From Holosporales bacterium (GTDB lineage: Bacteria > Pseudomonadota > Alphaproteobacteria > UBA3830 > JAIRMZ01), in NCBI GenBank assembly GCA_031266655.1, contig JAISAP010000050.1:1-37301 (forward strand): a DNA stretch of 37,301 nt, given 5' to 3'. Of this stretch, positions 9,548 through 31,896 are shown one piece after another. The number at the start of each line of letters is the position of its first letter. The first letter of the stretch is position 1. Position numbers and translations under genes: made by a program. The notes beneath the pieces were generated by a model. The model was not told the origin of the DNA. It did no database searches and saw only the letters and a program-made list of their open reading frames with translations.

Positions 9548-9853
9548 TTACCAACTCGCCTTTCTGACGCCCGGCAAGAGGCCTGCAGAAGCCATCTCAC
9601 GAAACATCAGCCGAGAAAGGTTGAACTTCCGGTACACGGCACGCGCGCGCCCCGTCAAAAGGCAACGATTGCGCATGCGCACAGCAGATCCATTGCGTGG
9701 CAATGCGGACAGCTGGAGCTGCGCCTGAAAACGCTCCGTCGGATCCGCTTTTTTGTTCATGATCACGGCCTTCAGGGCAGCGCGCCGCTCTTTTTGCTGC
9801 TGCACGATCTTCTTGACGTGGAGAGAATGCTCTATGGAGCTTTTACGTGCCAT
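9548..9853 (-). CDS. rpsN: 30S ribosomal protein S14 (long, zinc-independent form)
   Basis: [17 protein letters not shown]...[41 protein letters not shown]. Confidence 0.97.
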
Positions 9854-10438
9854 ATCCGTCCTGCACTATGAGTGAGAAGCCTAGTGTTGACCTTAGCTTC
9901 TTGCTCGTTGTAGCCATCTTTGGAGCAACACAGCGTCCTTTTTGCCACTGCGCGGTCTTCTCGATGCGAAGGAAGCGTTCTATGGAGTACCTACATGCCA
10001 TATCAGCCCTGCTCTCCAAGTAAAAAGTCAAATACTGTCATCGGACCCATCTGTTCCTTCATCGCGACCGACTCCAGAGCGGTATACCGCCTCCCTACAG
10101 GAAGCACGTGCTCGATGGGGCTCCTATGCGCCATCAGTCTTGCTCCCTGAATGAGGAGTCGCGCTGTCATCAGCCCTGTCTCTTCGTTCACTGCAGTCAT
10201 CTCCAGGGCAGCGTACTTCCCTTTCTGTCGGCGCACGACACCCCTTACATGGAAAGAAGGCCTTACTGAGCGTTTACATGCCATACGAGTCTCGCTCTTT
10301 AAAGAAAAGGTCAGACACCGGCACTGAACCCACCTTCCTGTCCGCCACGGCCGCCCTCAGAGCGGCGTACTGCTCTCTCCATCGGCACACGATCCCCTCT
10401 ACAGGAAGTAAATACTTAATGAAACTTTTACGCGCCAT
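9854..10438 (-). repeat. Tandem array of 4 diverged copies of the rplE|rpsN junction (rpsN-5'-like mini-ORFs)
   Basis: Starts at 10438 (MARKSFIKYLLPVEGIVCRWREQYAALRAAVADRKVGSV), 10284 (MACKRSVRPSFHVRGVVRRQKGKYAALEMTAVNEE), 10134 (MAHRSPIEHVLPVGRRYTALESVAMKEQ) and 10001 (MACRYSIERFLRIEKTAQWQKGRCVAPKMATTSKK), compared with Rps[36 protein letters not shown]. Spacing 154/150/133/148 bp. Confidence 0.9.
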
Positions 10439-10439
10439 A

Positions 10440-10985
10440 TCAGTCCTGCGCCATGAACGGAAAATTGAAGGCCTTGAGGAGAGCGCAACACGCTTGGTCC
10501 TCTTTGGCCGTCGTTACTACAGAGACATCCAAGCCGCGGATCACGTCGACGTTCTTGGAGCCCACTTCCGGAAAGACGATCTGCTCCTTGATTCCGAAGG
10601 AGTAGTTTCCCCTTCCGTCGAAGGAACGCGCAGACAAGCCGCGGAAATCTCGCACGCGCGGAAGAGCAATCGTCACCAGGCGATCGATAAACTCGTACAT
10701 CCGCGCTCCCCTCAGTGTCACCATCGCTCCGATGGACTGTCCTTCGCGTACTTTAAAGGCTGCAACGGACTTCCGGGCGCGTGTCGCCACCGCCTTTTGC
10801 CCAGCGATCCAAGTCAACTCGTCGACAGCCGCTTTCACATGCTTGCTGTCCGCTACCGCTTCCCCTACACCCATGTTCAGGACAATCTTGACCAACCGAG
10901 GAACGGAGAAATCGTTGCCGCAAGCTAGCTCCTTGCGCAATTCCGGCACGATAGTATTCACGTAATAATCTCGAAGTCGAGCCAT
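10440..10985 (-). CDS. rplE: 50S ribosomal protein L5
   Basis: [20 protein letters not shown]...[16 protein letters not shown]...FNFPFMAQD. Confidence 0.97.
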
Positions 10986-11311: not shown

Positions 11312-11562
11312 CGTCTCTCCTCAGAAGAAGCTTTTGCCACCCTCTTCACGCAGTCCCACTCCCTCACTCAACAACAAAAGACCGGATCGGCACTCCCCCA
11401 AGCTCCGCTTGGACTCAACCGACGGCTTCAAACAAAAACAGGAGCACTCCGGCTCCAAACCCTTCCTTCCCACGCGAACAGCGCGCATTATATGGGCGGA
11501 AGTCCCTCTATGCAACAAGGCTCAGGAGAGGGCCCCTCCCCTCCTCCCAAAAAGGCCCAACA

Positions 11563-11724
11563 TTACGCTTGCGAGGGCTTTGCCATATAATACACATCGG
11601 GAGGAGCGCTTTCTTCTTCCTCTTCCAGGAGAATCCCTCGGAACACCCTCTCGGATCCGCCGACAACGTACTCTCCGCAAGACACTGCAGGAGAGAAAAG
11701 TGCTCCCTCTTTCCAATTTTCCAT
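11563..11724 (-). repeat. Possible degenerate rplX-5'-like mini-ORF starting at the rplN stop
   Basis: ATG at 11724 overlaps the rpl[60 protein letters not shown] shares the nucleotide stretch AAAGCCCTCGCA with rplX at a comparable position, but overall similarity is weak. Confidence 0.35.
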
Positions 11725-15390: not shown

Positions 15391-17075
15391 AGGGAACCTC
15401 CCAAGAGGGGTTGTGTGAGGCCTTCTACTGTCCGTCCGGCTAGAAGCATTCCTTCAGTAGCAAGCGACAATTCAACCGGAGATGTTTGCTTGCCTTTTAG
15501 GGGACCTCCCAAGAGGTGTCGCGCGAGGCCTTTTGCTGCCCACCCGGTTGAGGACATCCCTTCGACCGAAAGAATCAACTCGATTGGAAGAGTCGGTTTG
15601 GCGAGAGATGTCCGTTCACCTTTTGAAGAAGCCCCACGCCGGACAGGCGCATCTCTCGCTGTCATCGGCGCTTCCGGTGCACCGGGAACAGGACAAACGG
15701 TACAGACACCCTCTTCTGATACTCGATCAAACCTACCCGTCATAACGGGAGTAACGACGTAACTCAGCACAGAGCACCTCCTCGGAGGTACAACACGAGG
15801 TCCTTTCGCTGTCCGCCCAGTTGGCAAAGTCCTCTCGGTCGGGGGTACGCGCTCAACCGAACAAGTTCGCCCAGCCGGAGGTGTCCACATCACCAGAAAA
15901 GCTCTTCCTATCGGGGGTATCCACGCAACTACAGGCACAATCCTTTGACAGGAAGACGCGCCTTCTACTGCCATCCAGCGCGAAATTTTATGTACTTCTG
16001 ACGTAATGGAACAGCAGCCCATCATGGAGCACCTCCCAGAAGAGGCTGCGTGTGGTACCGTTTCGCCCAGTCGATCTGAAATACCCACTTTATCGAAAGA
16101 GTGGATCCTGCTGTACGGAAAGCTCCCTGTTGGAGAGGCAAACTCTCCGCTCTTGCTCGCATTTTCGCCACACCGAATGGAGTACTGGGGATGCACATGT
16201 CGTCTCCCAGGGTCCCATGGGACTTTTTCCATCCTTGCAGAAGCAGTCATACTGTTCAACATGGAACACCTTCCTGGAGGCCTTGAGTGAAGTGCTCCTC
16301 TGCCCAATTGGTCGAAGAAACTCGCTCGGTCAGAGGTCTCTGCCAAACCGGAAAAGTCCACCTGGCAGAAAGCACCTGCTCCATCAGAGAAGCCCGCTCT
16401 GTCAGAGGCCCCCCTTTAGCCGAGGATGCGTTTCCTCGCCAGATAGACGCATCTCCTGTTGCTACCCAGCTCTGAATTTTACGTGTCATTGACACAACGG
16501 AGTGGAAATTCGTCACAAGACACCTCCCGGAAGGTGCTGCACAAGGCATTTTCTTCCCCAATCAATTTGAGGCGCCCATTCGATCGAAGGAGGCAGCGCG
16601 ATTGGAAGAACCGGTTTGGCCGGAGGTGTCTGCTCATCCAGAGGAGCCCATTCGGTTGTGCAAGCAATTCCGCACCAAGCGGACACATCCCACGCTGTTG
16701 CCAAATGCAAAATCTCACAGGCCTGTGGAGCAACGGAGCAGCTCATCATAGTGCGCCTCTTTGAAGGCGCATCGTGAGCCCCTCTGCCGCCCAGTTGATT
16801 AGGCCGCCCATTTGGGGTGAGACATCCGCCCAGTCGGAGGACCCCTCTCCACCGAGAGCATCCTCCTGATCGGAGAAAGCCGCTCCGCTAGAGGTTTCCA
16901 CCCAGTCGGAGAGATCCAGCCAACCGAAGGCACCCCTCTCGCCGGAGCAGTGCCCCCGGTGAGAGACGTCCCCTCGGTCGCCAGAAAAGCCTTGCGCCGG
17001 GAAAACACACCTATCGCCGTCCAGTAATATAAAATCTTTTTGCGTAACTGGCATAACGGAGTGGCCACTCATCAT
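15391..17075 (-). repeat. Tandem array of 6 diverged copies of the rplD|rplW junction forming SD-led mini-ORFs, with internal minisatellite-like repeats
   Basis: Unit starts at 17075, 16749, 16516 (GTG), 16262, 16025 and 15770 (GTG). Each follows a GAGG/GGAGGT-type SD. Heads resemble RplW (15770: VLSYVVTPVMTGRFDRVSEEGVCTVCPVPGA vs [31 protein letters not shown]). Tails resemble the RplD C-terminus (INWAAEGLTMRLQRGAL* vs TRRAAEGLTKRLQRGAL*). Confidence 0.9.
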
Positions 17076-24046: not shown

Positions 24047-26086
24047 GTGAAAAACACACAGCTATTAAGGGCAATCTCTGCATTTGCCTTGGGAGTACTC
24101 AGTACCCTTCCCGAAGCTAAGGCGATGCAGCTCATCTGGAAAGAGCTTCCAAAGGGGTTTCCCTATGCCCGAAACGTGTTCGCTCGTGAGGGAATCCTGG
24201 TCGTACTTTCTGCTCCCGGAACCAACGTAGTTTTGCAGAGAAAAAGCAGTCTTCGCTCACAAGGCCCCGTGATTCCCGCGAACAAGAGGGTGCTTACGAT
24301 ATGGTGCTATGCCAATGACAGATCCCCTTCCTACCCTGCCTTCGAGGCGCATACGAAACTGATCGAGATAGGGGCGGCAGCCTTTCTCAAATCTCGCTTG
24401 AGGTCCCTCTGTATTCCCGCGAGCGTGCGGACGCTGGGGATAGAGTGTTTCTTTTCCTGTAGATCCATCGCTTCTCTTACCTTTGAGCGTGGCTCCCAGC
24501 TTCGAGAAATGGGAACTGGGGCTTTCTCTGGTTCAAGCGTGCCCTTCATCACGATTCCTGTGCGCGTGCAAACACTCAGCACACAGTGCTTTTCGAATTG
24601 CACCTCCCTTACCTGGGTTACTTTTGAGTCTCCTTCTCGCTTGCAAATCGTGGAAGAGGGTGCCTTCTCTTCTTCCCGCTTACAGTCCATCGTCTTGCCA
24701 AGCAGTGTAGAAGAGCTAGGAGAACAATGTTTTTTCTGCTGCCAATTCCTCGTCACCGCTACCTTTGAGCCTGGTTCTCGACTCCAGGCCATTAAGGAAA
24801 GAGCTTTCTGCCGGTCTGGCTTGCAATCCCTTGGTATTCCCGCGAGCGTGCAAACACTCGAAAGAGAGTGTTTTGCGGATTGTGCCTCCCTTACCTGGGT
24901 TACTTTTGAGTCTCCTTCTCGCTTGCAAATCATAGAAGAGGGTGCCTTCTCTTCTTCCCGTTTACAGTCCATCGTCTTGCCAAGCAGTGTAGAAGAGTTG
25001 GGAAAACGATGTTTTTTCTGCTGCCAATTCCTTGCCATCGCCACTTTTGAGCCTCGTTCTCGACTCCAGGCCATTAAGGAAAGAGCGTTCTACCGGTCTG
25101 GCTTACAATCCCTTTGTATTCCCGCGAGCGTGCAAACACTCGAAAGAGAGTGTTTTGCGGATTGCCGATCCCTGAGAGACGTGACCGTCGAAGCCTGCTC
25201 TCAGCTTCGCGTCATTGGAGATAGCGCGTTCGCATGCACCGGTCTTGAGTCTTTCACGATCCCCGCAAGCGTTGAAATACTTGAGATAGAGGGCTTCAAA
25301 AATTGCCCATCTCTAACTTCCGTTGTCTTTGAGCGCCCTTCTCAGCTGCGAACAGTGGGAAAGAGCGCTTTTGCTCGATCCAGCATACAGTCCATTGCAA
25401 TCCCCGCACGTGTAGAGGTTCTGAGCGCACGCTGTTTCTCGGAATGTGTATCTCTTGCCTCAATTACCTTTGAGGAAGGCTCTCGTCTGAGGGTTGTTGA
25501 GAGTGAAGCGTTTTTTAAGACAGCCTTAGTGTACCCCCATCTCCCGAGAGGGGTCACTCTCGGAAGCTGCGTATTCGGGTGTTCTAGCATCAGAGGGCTG
25601 TGTCTCGGAGGGGAATGGGTAAGCGTTTTTAGCGGTGCTTTTGCATATACGGGCATTCCACAAGTCCTCGTGATTCCACGAAACGTTACAGTCCTCCGGG
25701 CTTTCTGTTTCGCTGGGTGCTGGGCACTGACCTCGGTTTCCTTCGAGGCCCCTTCTCAACTGACAAGGATTGAGCAAAGCGCGTTCGCTGGTTCCAGTAT
25801 TCCGTCCCTTTGCATTCCTGCAAGCGTAAAAGTGCTGGAAAGAGCATGTTTCGCACATTGCCCGTCGCTTACCCTCGTCACTTTCGAGGCGGGTTCTCGG
25901 CTAGAGAGGATAGAACCGTATGCCTTCGACAGAAGCCTTCATGCACAAATCGTACTCCCAGACGGGAGGAGCGTCTCGGCTAGACAGCTCCATCGCGGCT
26001 GGAGGCGCCCTTCTCTGCTTTCCCGCCTCATGGGACGAGAAGATGGGACGTATGCCCCTTCCACAGGAGGCTGCTCTGTTCAGTAG
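24047..26086 (+). CDS. Secreted BspA-like leucine-rich repeat protein (LRR_5 / TpLRR type)
   Basis: Signal-like N-terminus MKNTQLLRAISAFALGVLSTLPEAKA. Many ~23-aa repeats of the form F.GSSIPSLCIPASVKVLERACFAHCPSLTLVTFEAGSRLERIE.YAF. GTG start 4 nt after the upstream gene's stop codon. Confidence 0.88.
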   Translation: MKNTQLLRAISAFALGVLSTLPEAKAMQLIWKELPKGFPYARNVFAREGILVVLSAPGTNVVLQRKSSLRSQGPVIPANKRVLTIWCYANDRSPSYPAFEAHTKLIEIGAAAFLKSRLRSLCIPASVRTLGIECFFSCRSIASLTFERGSQLREMGTGAFSGSSVPFITIPVRVQTLSTQCFSNCTSLTWVTFESPSRLQIVEEGAFSSSRLQSIVLPSSVEELGEQCFFCCQFLVTATFEPGSRLQAIKERAFCRSGLQSLGIPASVQTLERECFADCASLTWVTFESPSRLQIIEEGAFSSSRLQSIVLPSSVEELGKRCFFCCQFLAIATFEPRSRLQAIKERAFYRSGLQSLCIPASVQTLERECFADCRSLRDVTVEACSQLRVIGDSAFACTGLESFTIPASVEILEIEGFKNCPSLTSVVFERPSQLRTVGKSAFARSSIQSIAIPARVEVLSARCFSECVSLASITFEEGSRLRVVESEAFFKTALVYPHLPRGVTLGSCVFGCSSIRGLCLGGEWVSVFSGAFAYTGIPQVLVIPRNVTVLRAFCFAGCWALTSVSFEAPSQLTRIEQSAFAGSSIPSLCIPASVKVLERACFAHCPSLTLVTFEAGSRLERIEPYAFDRSLHAQIVLPDGRSVSARQLHRGWRRPSLLSRLMGREDGTYAPSTGGCSVQ

Positions 26087-26652
26087 AGGCCGCCACTCTT
26101 CCAGCGTCGCCCTACGCGGCCACTTCCCGCCTCTGGAGTGTCTCGGCTAGACAGCTCCATCGCGGCTGGAGGCGCCCTTCTCTGCTTGCTCGCCTCATGG
26201 GAAGAGAAGATGGGACGTACGCCCCTTCCACAGGAGGCTGCTCCGTTCAGTAGAGACGGTCACTCCTCCAGCGTCGCCCTACGCGGCCACTTCTCTTCTC
26301 TGGAGCATCTCGGCTAGACAGCTCCATCGCGGCTGGAGGCGCCCTTCTCTGCTTTTCCGCCTCATGGGACGAGAAGGTGGGACGTACGCCCCTTCCACAG
26401 GAGGCTGCTCCGTTCAGTAGAGACGGTCACTCCTCCAGCGTTTTGCTCTATGCGGCGACTTCCCGCCTCTGGAGCATTTCGGCTAGACAGCTCCATCGCG
26501 GCTGGAGGCGTCCTTCTCTGCTTTCCCGTCTTATGGGGAGAGGAGATGGGATGTGCACCCCTTCCGCAGGAGGCTGCTCCGTTCAGTAGAGGCGGTCATT
26601 CCTCCAGCGTTCCGCTCTATGCGGCGACTTCCCGCCTCTGGAGCGTCTCGGC
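25974..26652. repeat. Four-unit ~167-169 bp tandem repeat of the LRR gene 3' end plus rpoC 3' end
   Basis: The TCTCGGC/TTTCGGC boundary recurs at 25974, 26141, 26308, 26477 and 26646. TAGACAGCTCCATCGCGGCTGGAGGCG is present in each copy. The antisense rpoC tail (LQRREVAA*) is at 26112-26147, 26279-26314, 26448-26483 and genuinely at 26617-26652. Confidence 0.93.
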
Positions 26653-30750: not shown

Positions 30751-31896
30751 CCCGCCTCCGTCTCTTTTCCGTTAACCAATCCCTACAACCGTGGCCTCTG
30801 TAACCGTTCTGCCATCGCAGCTTCTAAGCATTACTGCTTATACGACTTATACGACGAGCAAAGAACCCTTTTATGGGAAAGCTTGGCACTTGTCGCTGCC
30901 GAGCCTCTCCCTTCGGTCCCGAAGACCGAATCCGCTCCGGATCCTCTAGAGAAACCCGAAGCACGTCAAAGTCGCCCAGTTCCGAAGGTTGCGTTTGCTC
31001 CGGACCCGCTAGAGAAACCCGAAGCGCGTCAAAGTCACCAAGTCCCGAAGGCTGAATCCGCTCTGAGCTCGCTAAAGGGACCTGAAGCGCATCAAAGTCG
31101 CCCAGTCCCAAGGACTGAATCCTCTCCGAAACCGCTAGAGAGGCTTGTGGCACACCAAAACCCTCCGGGCCGTTCGCCCTCCTTCCAAGAATCCTCTGCG
31201 CTTGAGCCATCATCCCGCCTCTGTCTCTTTTTTGCTAACCAATCCCTGCACCGTACCCTCTACAGCCGTTCTGCCGGCGCAACCTCTAAGCATTGTCACT
31301 CGCGAGATGAGCAAAAGACCCCTCCGCGGAAGGGCTCTGCAAATGCCGCTGCCGAGCCTCTCCCTTCAGTCCCAAAGGACAAAACCACTCTGGACTCGCC
31401 AGAGAGACCTGAAGGGCATCAAAGTCACCCAGTCCCAAGGACTGAATCCTCTCCGAAACCACTAGAGAGGCTTGCGGTACACCAAAATCACCCGGGCCGC
31501 TCACCGCTCCAAAAATCCTCTGCACTTGAGCCATCATTCCGCCTCCTTAAATTCCTACAGTCGTAGCCTCTACAGCCGTTCTACCAACACGGCTTCTAAG
31601 CATTGTCACTCGCGAGATGAGCAAAAGGCCCCTCCGCAGAAGGGTCCAGCAATGTCCGTTGCTGAACCTCTCCTTTCAGTCCCGAAGACCGAATCCGCTC
31701 CGGATCCTCTAGAGAGGCTTGTAGCGCATCAAAGTCACCCGCTCCCAAAGGTTGCGTTTGCTCCGGACTTGCTAAAGAAGCTTGCAGCGCGCAAAAACCC
31801 TCTAGGCTATTCGCCCCTCCGAACATCCTCTGCACTTGAACCATCATCCCGCTTCCGTCTCCTTAAATTCCTACAACCGTTTCTCTGATGGCGTTC
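30751..31896 (-). repeat. Tandem array of 3 diverged copies of the rpoB|rpoC junction (leader plus rpoC 5' end) with nested ~63-66 bp repeats
   Basis: ORFs starting at 31847 (MMVQVQRMFGGANSLEGFCALQASLASPEQ), 31537 (MMAQVQRIFGAVSGPGDFGVPQASLVVSERI) and 31213 (MMAQAQRILGRRANGPEGFGVPQASLAVSERI), compared with Rpo[32 protein letters not shown]. The leader motif ...CTTCTAAGCATT... repeats upstream of each. Confidence 0.93.

Follow-up and report, generated by a model that had tools for sequence, protein, structure and literature searches.

A tandem array of rpsN-derived copies in a Holosporales ribosomal operon, probably a relic of old junction-spanning duplications

Organization of the rplE-rpsN junction

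The window analyzed in this study is the whole 37,301-nt stretch of contig JAISAP010000050.1 (assembly GCA_031266655.1) from a Holosporales bacterium, whose genome is a 1.29-Mb draft in 80 contigs and which belongs to an order of small-genomed Alphaproteobacteria. Genes were called by homology to relatives, codon-usage calling being too weak. The genes for ribosomal proteins L5 (rplE) and S14 (rpsN) are separated in the window by a spacer of 585 nt, which consists of four head-to-tail units (Table 1). Each unit resembles the 5' end of rpsN and is preceded by sequence resembling the end of rplE. The initial annotation placed S14-like starts at 10438, 10284, 10134, and 10001 on the minus strand, described the regions behind them as free of stops, and had the first ORF follow directly on the rplE stop and the last one (to 9843) overlap the rpsN start. 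All of these features were located as described, with the rpsN frame open in all four copies. It also counted four ORFs; the four S14-like frames are indeed open, but they form only three ORFs, because the stop between copies 2 and 3 is out of frame and the two copies are fused in one ORF of 93 aa. Copy 3 also lacks seven codons. The TGAT(AT)GG stop/start arrangement, reported for three of the four copies, is present before copies 1, 3, and 4, and copy 2 has CGTATGG, while the start region of the real rpsN now reads GGATATGG rather than TGAT(AT)GG. An AGGA-like motif precedes copies 1 and 4, and also rpsN. The only invariant run of at least four columns among the copies is ATGGC. The array has no second occurrence in its own genome, and Rfam gave no match to a structured RNA in the window.

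Table 1 Positions of the rplE-rpsN array, its flanking genes, and other junction inserts in the window
Feature	Position	Strand	Length	Description
rplE (L5)	10440..10985	-		Intact; Pfam Ribosomal_L5 and L5_C; its final ~12-30 nt are the left border of the duplicated unit
Copy 1, junction unit	10285..10438	-	154 nt	ORF 10438-10274, 54 aa, begins 1 nt past the rplE stop
Copy 2, junction unit	10135..10284	-	150 nt	ORF 10284-10003 (93 aa) continues through copy 3; start overlaps the copy 1 ORF by 11 nt
Copy 3, junction unit	10002..10134	-	133 nt	21-nt in-frame deletion; ATG kept, in frame within the copy 2 ORF
Copy 4, junction unit	9854..10001	-	148 nt	ORF 10001-9843, 52 aa, sharing 11 nt with the start of rpsN
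rpsN (S14)	9548..9853	-	101 aa	Intact; Pfam Ribosomal_S14, 88 bits; sole S14 gene and match in the genome
rplN-rplX insert	11312..11723	-	410 nt	No recognizable repeat
rplD-rplW array	15394..17071	-	1678 nt (gap)	One significant rplD 3'-end copy and further internal repeats; 325-aa ORF
Young array, convergent junction of rpoC and an LRR gene	25968..26652		4.1 x 167 nt	~90% identity; copies of both gene ends
rpoB-rpoC array	30751..31896	-	1146 nt	Three full rpoC 5'-end copies (ATG 31847, 31537, 31213) and five short repeats of codons 17-33; all in frame

Relation of the copies to rplE and rpsN

The likeness of the copies to the S14 N-terminus reflects derivation from rpsN. When the 5' end of rpsN was aligned locally with the spacer, the scores were 26-32, compared with at most 14 after shuffling, and self-blastn gave E-values down to 1e-14. 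The copies are 57% identical to rpsN over 43 codons and, for three of them, 65-69% identical over the first 28 codons; divergence from rpsN is nearly equal in all copies (0.43). As head-to-tail copies of the rplE 3' end and the rpsN 5' start, the units are strongly defined in their rpsN part and secure in their rplE part over no more than the final ~12 nt (GCAGGACTGAT), since in the 40 nt before the starts the similarity to rplE is weak beyond this stretch (P = 0.02-0.10 per copy).

The initial annotation had proposed a comparison of the same junction in related genomes. The array was absent from all 30 relatives retrieved from the order, among them G001 of the same genus and G002 and G003 of the same family. 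Because rplE and rpsN lie 4-21 nt apart in all 30, the array represents a lineage-specific insertion, between flanking genes that are both intact. The nearest available genome, of the same genus, is already saturated at four-fold sites (p = 0.66).

Absence of amino-acid constraint on the copies

Differences between copies are distributed over codon positions 1, 2, and 3 as 128, 139, and 143, respectively (rpsN and rpoC arrays pooled). The pN/pS of the copies is 0.70, and a neutral simulation that includes the transition bias of this genome (kappa about 10) gave a median of 0.77 (5-95% range 0.63-0.98, P = 0.22). The corresponding value for the rpoC copies is 0.52 against a neutral 0.72 (P = 0.11). 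Substitutions are biased toward transitions (314:96), and the youngest non-coding repeats of the same genome gave a K2P kappa of 9.4. Loss of mismatch repair was considered as the source of this bias and rejected, as mutS and mutL are both present with open frames. The copies show no sign of amino-acid selection.

Pfam places the S14 domain at residues 47-100, and the copies end before the residue 47 region. The mini-ORFs have no family match in Pfam or NCBIfam, and the 93-aa ORF has no homolog in 49 other genomes of the order. When the mini-ORFs are considered as functional uS14 paralogs, they have neither a Ribosomal_S14 domain nor purifying selection on the protein.

Retention of starts and reading frames

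With the ancestor taken as a consensus and the transition bias set to its measured value, the probability that none of the four copies contains a stop is ~0.09; it falls to 0.01 with the living rpsN as the ancestor, a choice that overstates divergence. The absence of stops is therefore unremarkable by itself, as it also is in the rpoC copies (P = 0.20). The initial annotation held that many substitutions in intact frames are not expected of long neutral decay and suggested checks of dN/dS and stop depletion; the neutral pN/pS, the even spread over codon positions, and this stop probability do not support that view.

The starts and the connections between the ORFs behave somewhat differently. 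Retention of all four ATGs has P = 0.025, uncorrected and for an array picked for its intact look. A chain of ORFs joins rplE to rpsN across the spacer, and each ORF end meets the next start at -11 to +2 nt. In neutral simulation, an unbroken relay of this kind has P = 0.005-0.03 under strict linkage and 0.35 under loose linkage, again uncorrected, the array having been chosen at first sight because it looked intact. For the rpoC copies, the retention of three ATGs together with the absence of stops has P = 0.029 (uncorrected). The survival of the starts and of the linked ORF chain is mildly unlikely under neutrality and constitutes a weak signal. In the four junction inserts of the window, 82 stops were counted in the antisense and 121 in the sense direction. 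A genome-wide estimate of stop depletion from self-blastn copies (6 stops vs 46 expected) was discarded as confounded, as most of these copies are real paralogs (BspA-type LRR and flagellar-rod-like genes).

Other arrays and local repeats in the genome

Similar arrays are present at further junctions of the window (Table 1). In a relative, rplD-rplW and rplN-rplX abut or overlap, and the rpoB-rpoC gap is about 30 nt. The arrays form an age series, with 90% identity at its young end and less than 60% at its old end. The 325-aa ORF of the rplD-rplW insert has no family match. The rplN-rplX insert may be an older junction array of this type. Its three antisense frames contain one stop in total, and an antisense ORF of 134 aa is present. 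Elsewhere in the window, an old diverged repeat array (~60% identity) lies downstream of rplQ at 4-1446, with a short rplQ copy at 2262-2318, and a BspA-type LRR_5 protein (679 aa) encoded at 24047-26086 has a 282-nt in-frame internal repeat with a 91% match.

Local repeats are much more common in this genome than in its relatives, covering 16% of a 308-kb sample compared with 0-6.5% in three relatives, with LRR genes and paralogous families included in the 16%. Over 1.08 Mb, 129 local-repeat segments poor in LRR motifs were counted. Many more LRR-type tandem repeats of 141/144 nt are found elsewhere in the genome. About 28 proteins, encoded at 28 places of the genome sample and reaching 550-780 aa in the longer members, have in common the C-terminus GTLERSTTDLAHELSEMIRAQHAYAANTKVLST, which resembles the C-terminal end of a flagellar rod-type (FlgF/FlgG-like) protein from a relative. 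These places include L115, L116, L118, L119, L121, L128, L155, L164, L169, L230, and L237. Such a paralogous expansion is unusual for a 1.3-Mb genome, and several members adjoin local repeat arrays.

Three further candidates for expanded junctions were rejected. At L130 (13369-13826), the apparent expansion is the charged C-terminal tail of an RND efflux adaptor, built of in-frame ~180-nt repeats. Between ruvB and ybgC (L169, 2332-3846) lies an intact transporter-like gene of ~400 codons, which is missing in the compared relative. The corC-lnt case is a gene-call artifact.

Discussion

We propose, with a probability of roughly 0.72, that the array arose by old tandem duplications across the rplE-rpsN junction and is decaying near-neutrally, so that it represents a relic and not a set of new working proteins. 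A segment of ~150 nt over the junction, comprising the end of rplE and the first ~115-130 nt of rpsN, would have been tandemly duplicated repeatedly, presumably by slippage or unequal crossover. Each event would keep a whole rplE upstream and a whole rpsN downstream. Because both genes stay complete, the cost of such a duplication would be small even where the operon is essential. Duplications within a gene would be lost, and junction-spanning ones would persist in the dense essential operon. The stop/start motif and the open S14 frame in each copy would be inherited, so that no special selection is needed to explain them. Later rounds and drift, chiefly by transitions and without amino-acid constraint, would then have led to the present array. 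The same process would have produced the arrays at rpoB-rpoC, at rplD-rplW, and at the 3' end of rpoC, as well as many local repeats elsewhere. We infer that the copies are without function.

A second reading accepts the duplication as a passive relic and adds selection on translation itself. Tandem duplications would part the operon genes, and the starts and frames of the decaying copies would be kept as a relay that spares ribosomes a long untranslated stretch on their way from rplE to rpsN. Translational coupling would thereby be preserved and Rho-dependent polarity on the downstream essential gene avoided, with the peptides as mere by-products. The close joints over the entire 585 nt, the ATG in all copies, the strict-linkage probability, and the AGGA-like motifs ahead of copies 1 and 4 and rpsN point in this direction. 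So do the retained starts and frames of the rpoC copies and the rplD-rplW insert, where the ORFs are likewise linked in a chain (P = 0.002) and one sense frame stays open for 342 codons (P < 0.001). However, antisense stops are fewer than sense stops in the junction inserts, which argues against a sense-specific opening. The ORFs of the rpoB-rpoC array are parted by gaps of ~50-75 nt and form no relay, the loose-linkage test is not significant, and the significance is uncorrected for an array selected for its intact look. We consider this reading unlikely on balance, at about one chance in five. If it were true, duplicated gene starts would be stepping stones constrained in frame and free in amino-acid sequence, and the relay would be a route for new small ORFs to arise in operons. 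Confirmation of the weak relay signal by strain data would provide a rare example in which selection acts on translation as such and not on the protein.

The remaining explanations are much less probable. Gene conversion from rpsN (and rpoC) could refresh the 5' ends of the copies and keep them open without selection; recA is present in the genome, and each copy is best conserved at its very start (ATGGC). The near-uniform divergence from rpsN and the lack of a long identical tract make this very improbable. The copies could also be functional small proteins, mimics of the S14 N-terminus with a role in rRNA binding or in regulation of the operon, as their open frames and residual similarity might suggest. 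This is hardly credible given the lack of amino-acid constraint, the end of the copies before the conserved S14 domain, the absence of family matches and of homologs in the 49 other genomes, the fusion of copies 2 and 3, and the codons missing from copy 3. Finally, an assembly artifact can practically be dismissed: although several of the draft's contigs end in local repeats, a difference of ~43% from rpsN cannot come from misjoining, and the genes on either side are whole and follow the conserved order.

The proposed origin of the array by junction duplication has known parallels. Partial tandem duplication can leave truncated gene copies. The present array likewise has copies of gene ends beside an intact gene, but it differs in that several rounds would have occurred at one place and the same pattern is seen at several neighboring junctions. 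Ehrlichia ruminantium has a genome of ~1.3 Mb with a coding ratio of ~64%, and its non-coding tandem repeats actively expand and contract (PMC10710844, citing Collins 2005 and Frutos 2006). The present case would work in a similar way. Both are reduced alphaproteobacterial genomes of ~1.3 Mb with many local repeats, and spacer tandem repeats lengthen the gaps between genes in both. In contrast to E. ruminantium, the arrays studied here are found within essential operons of the ribosome and RNA polymerase and are old (~43% diverged from the source gene), with gene starts and frames kept. The defining dynamic feature of E. ruminantium is variation in repeat copy number between strains; for the present bacterium, no second strain was found. 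The overlapping or abutting stop/start pairs also resemble the translational coupling of neighboring genes (review PMC12548453), here repeated along an array. This geometry is known from the sequence and was inherited from the duplicated junction, and hence is no proof of coupling.

If the array is a relic of this kind, junction-spanning tandem duplication would survive repeatedly within bacterial operons that are otherwise highly conserved, and the relics that it leaves may easily be mistaken for a family of small genes.
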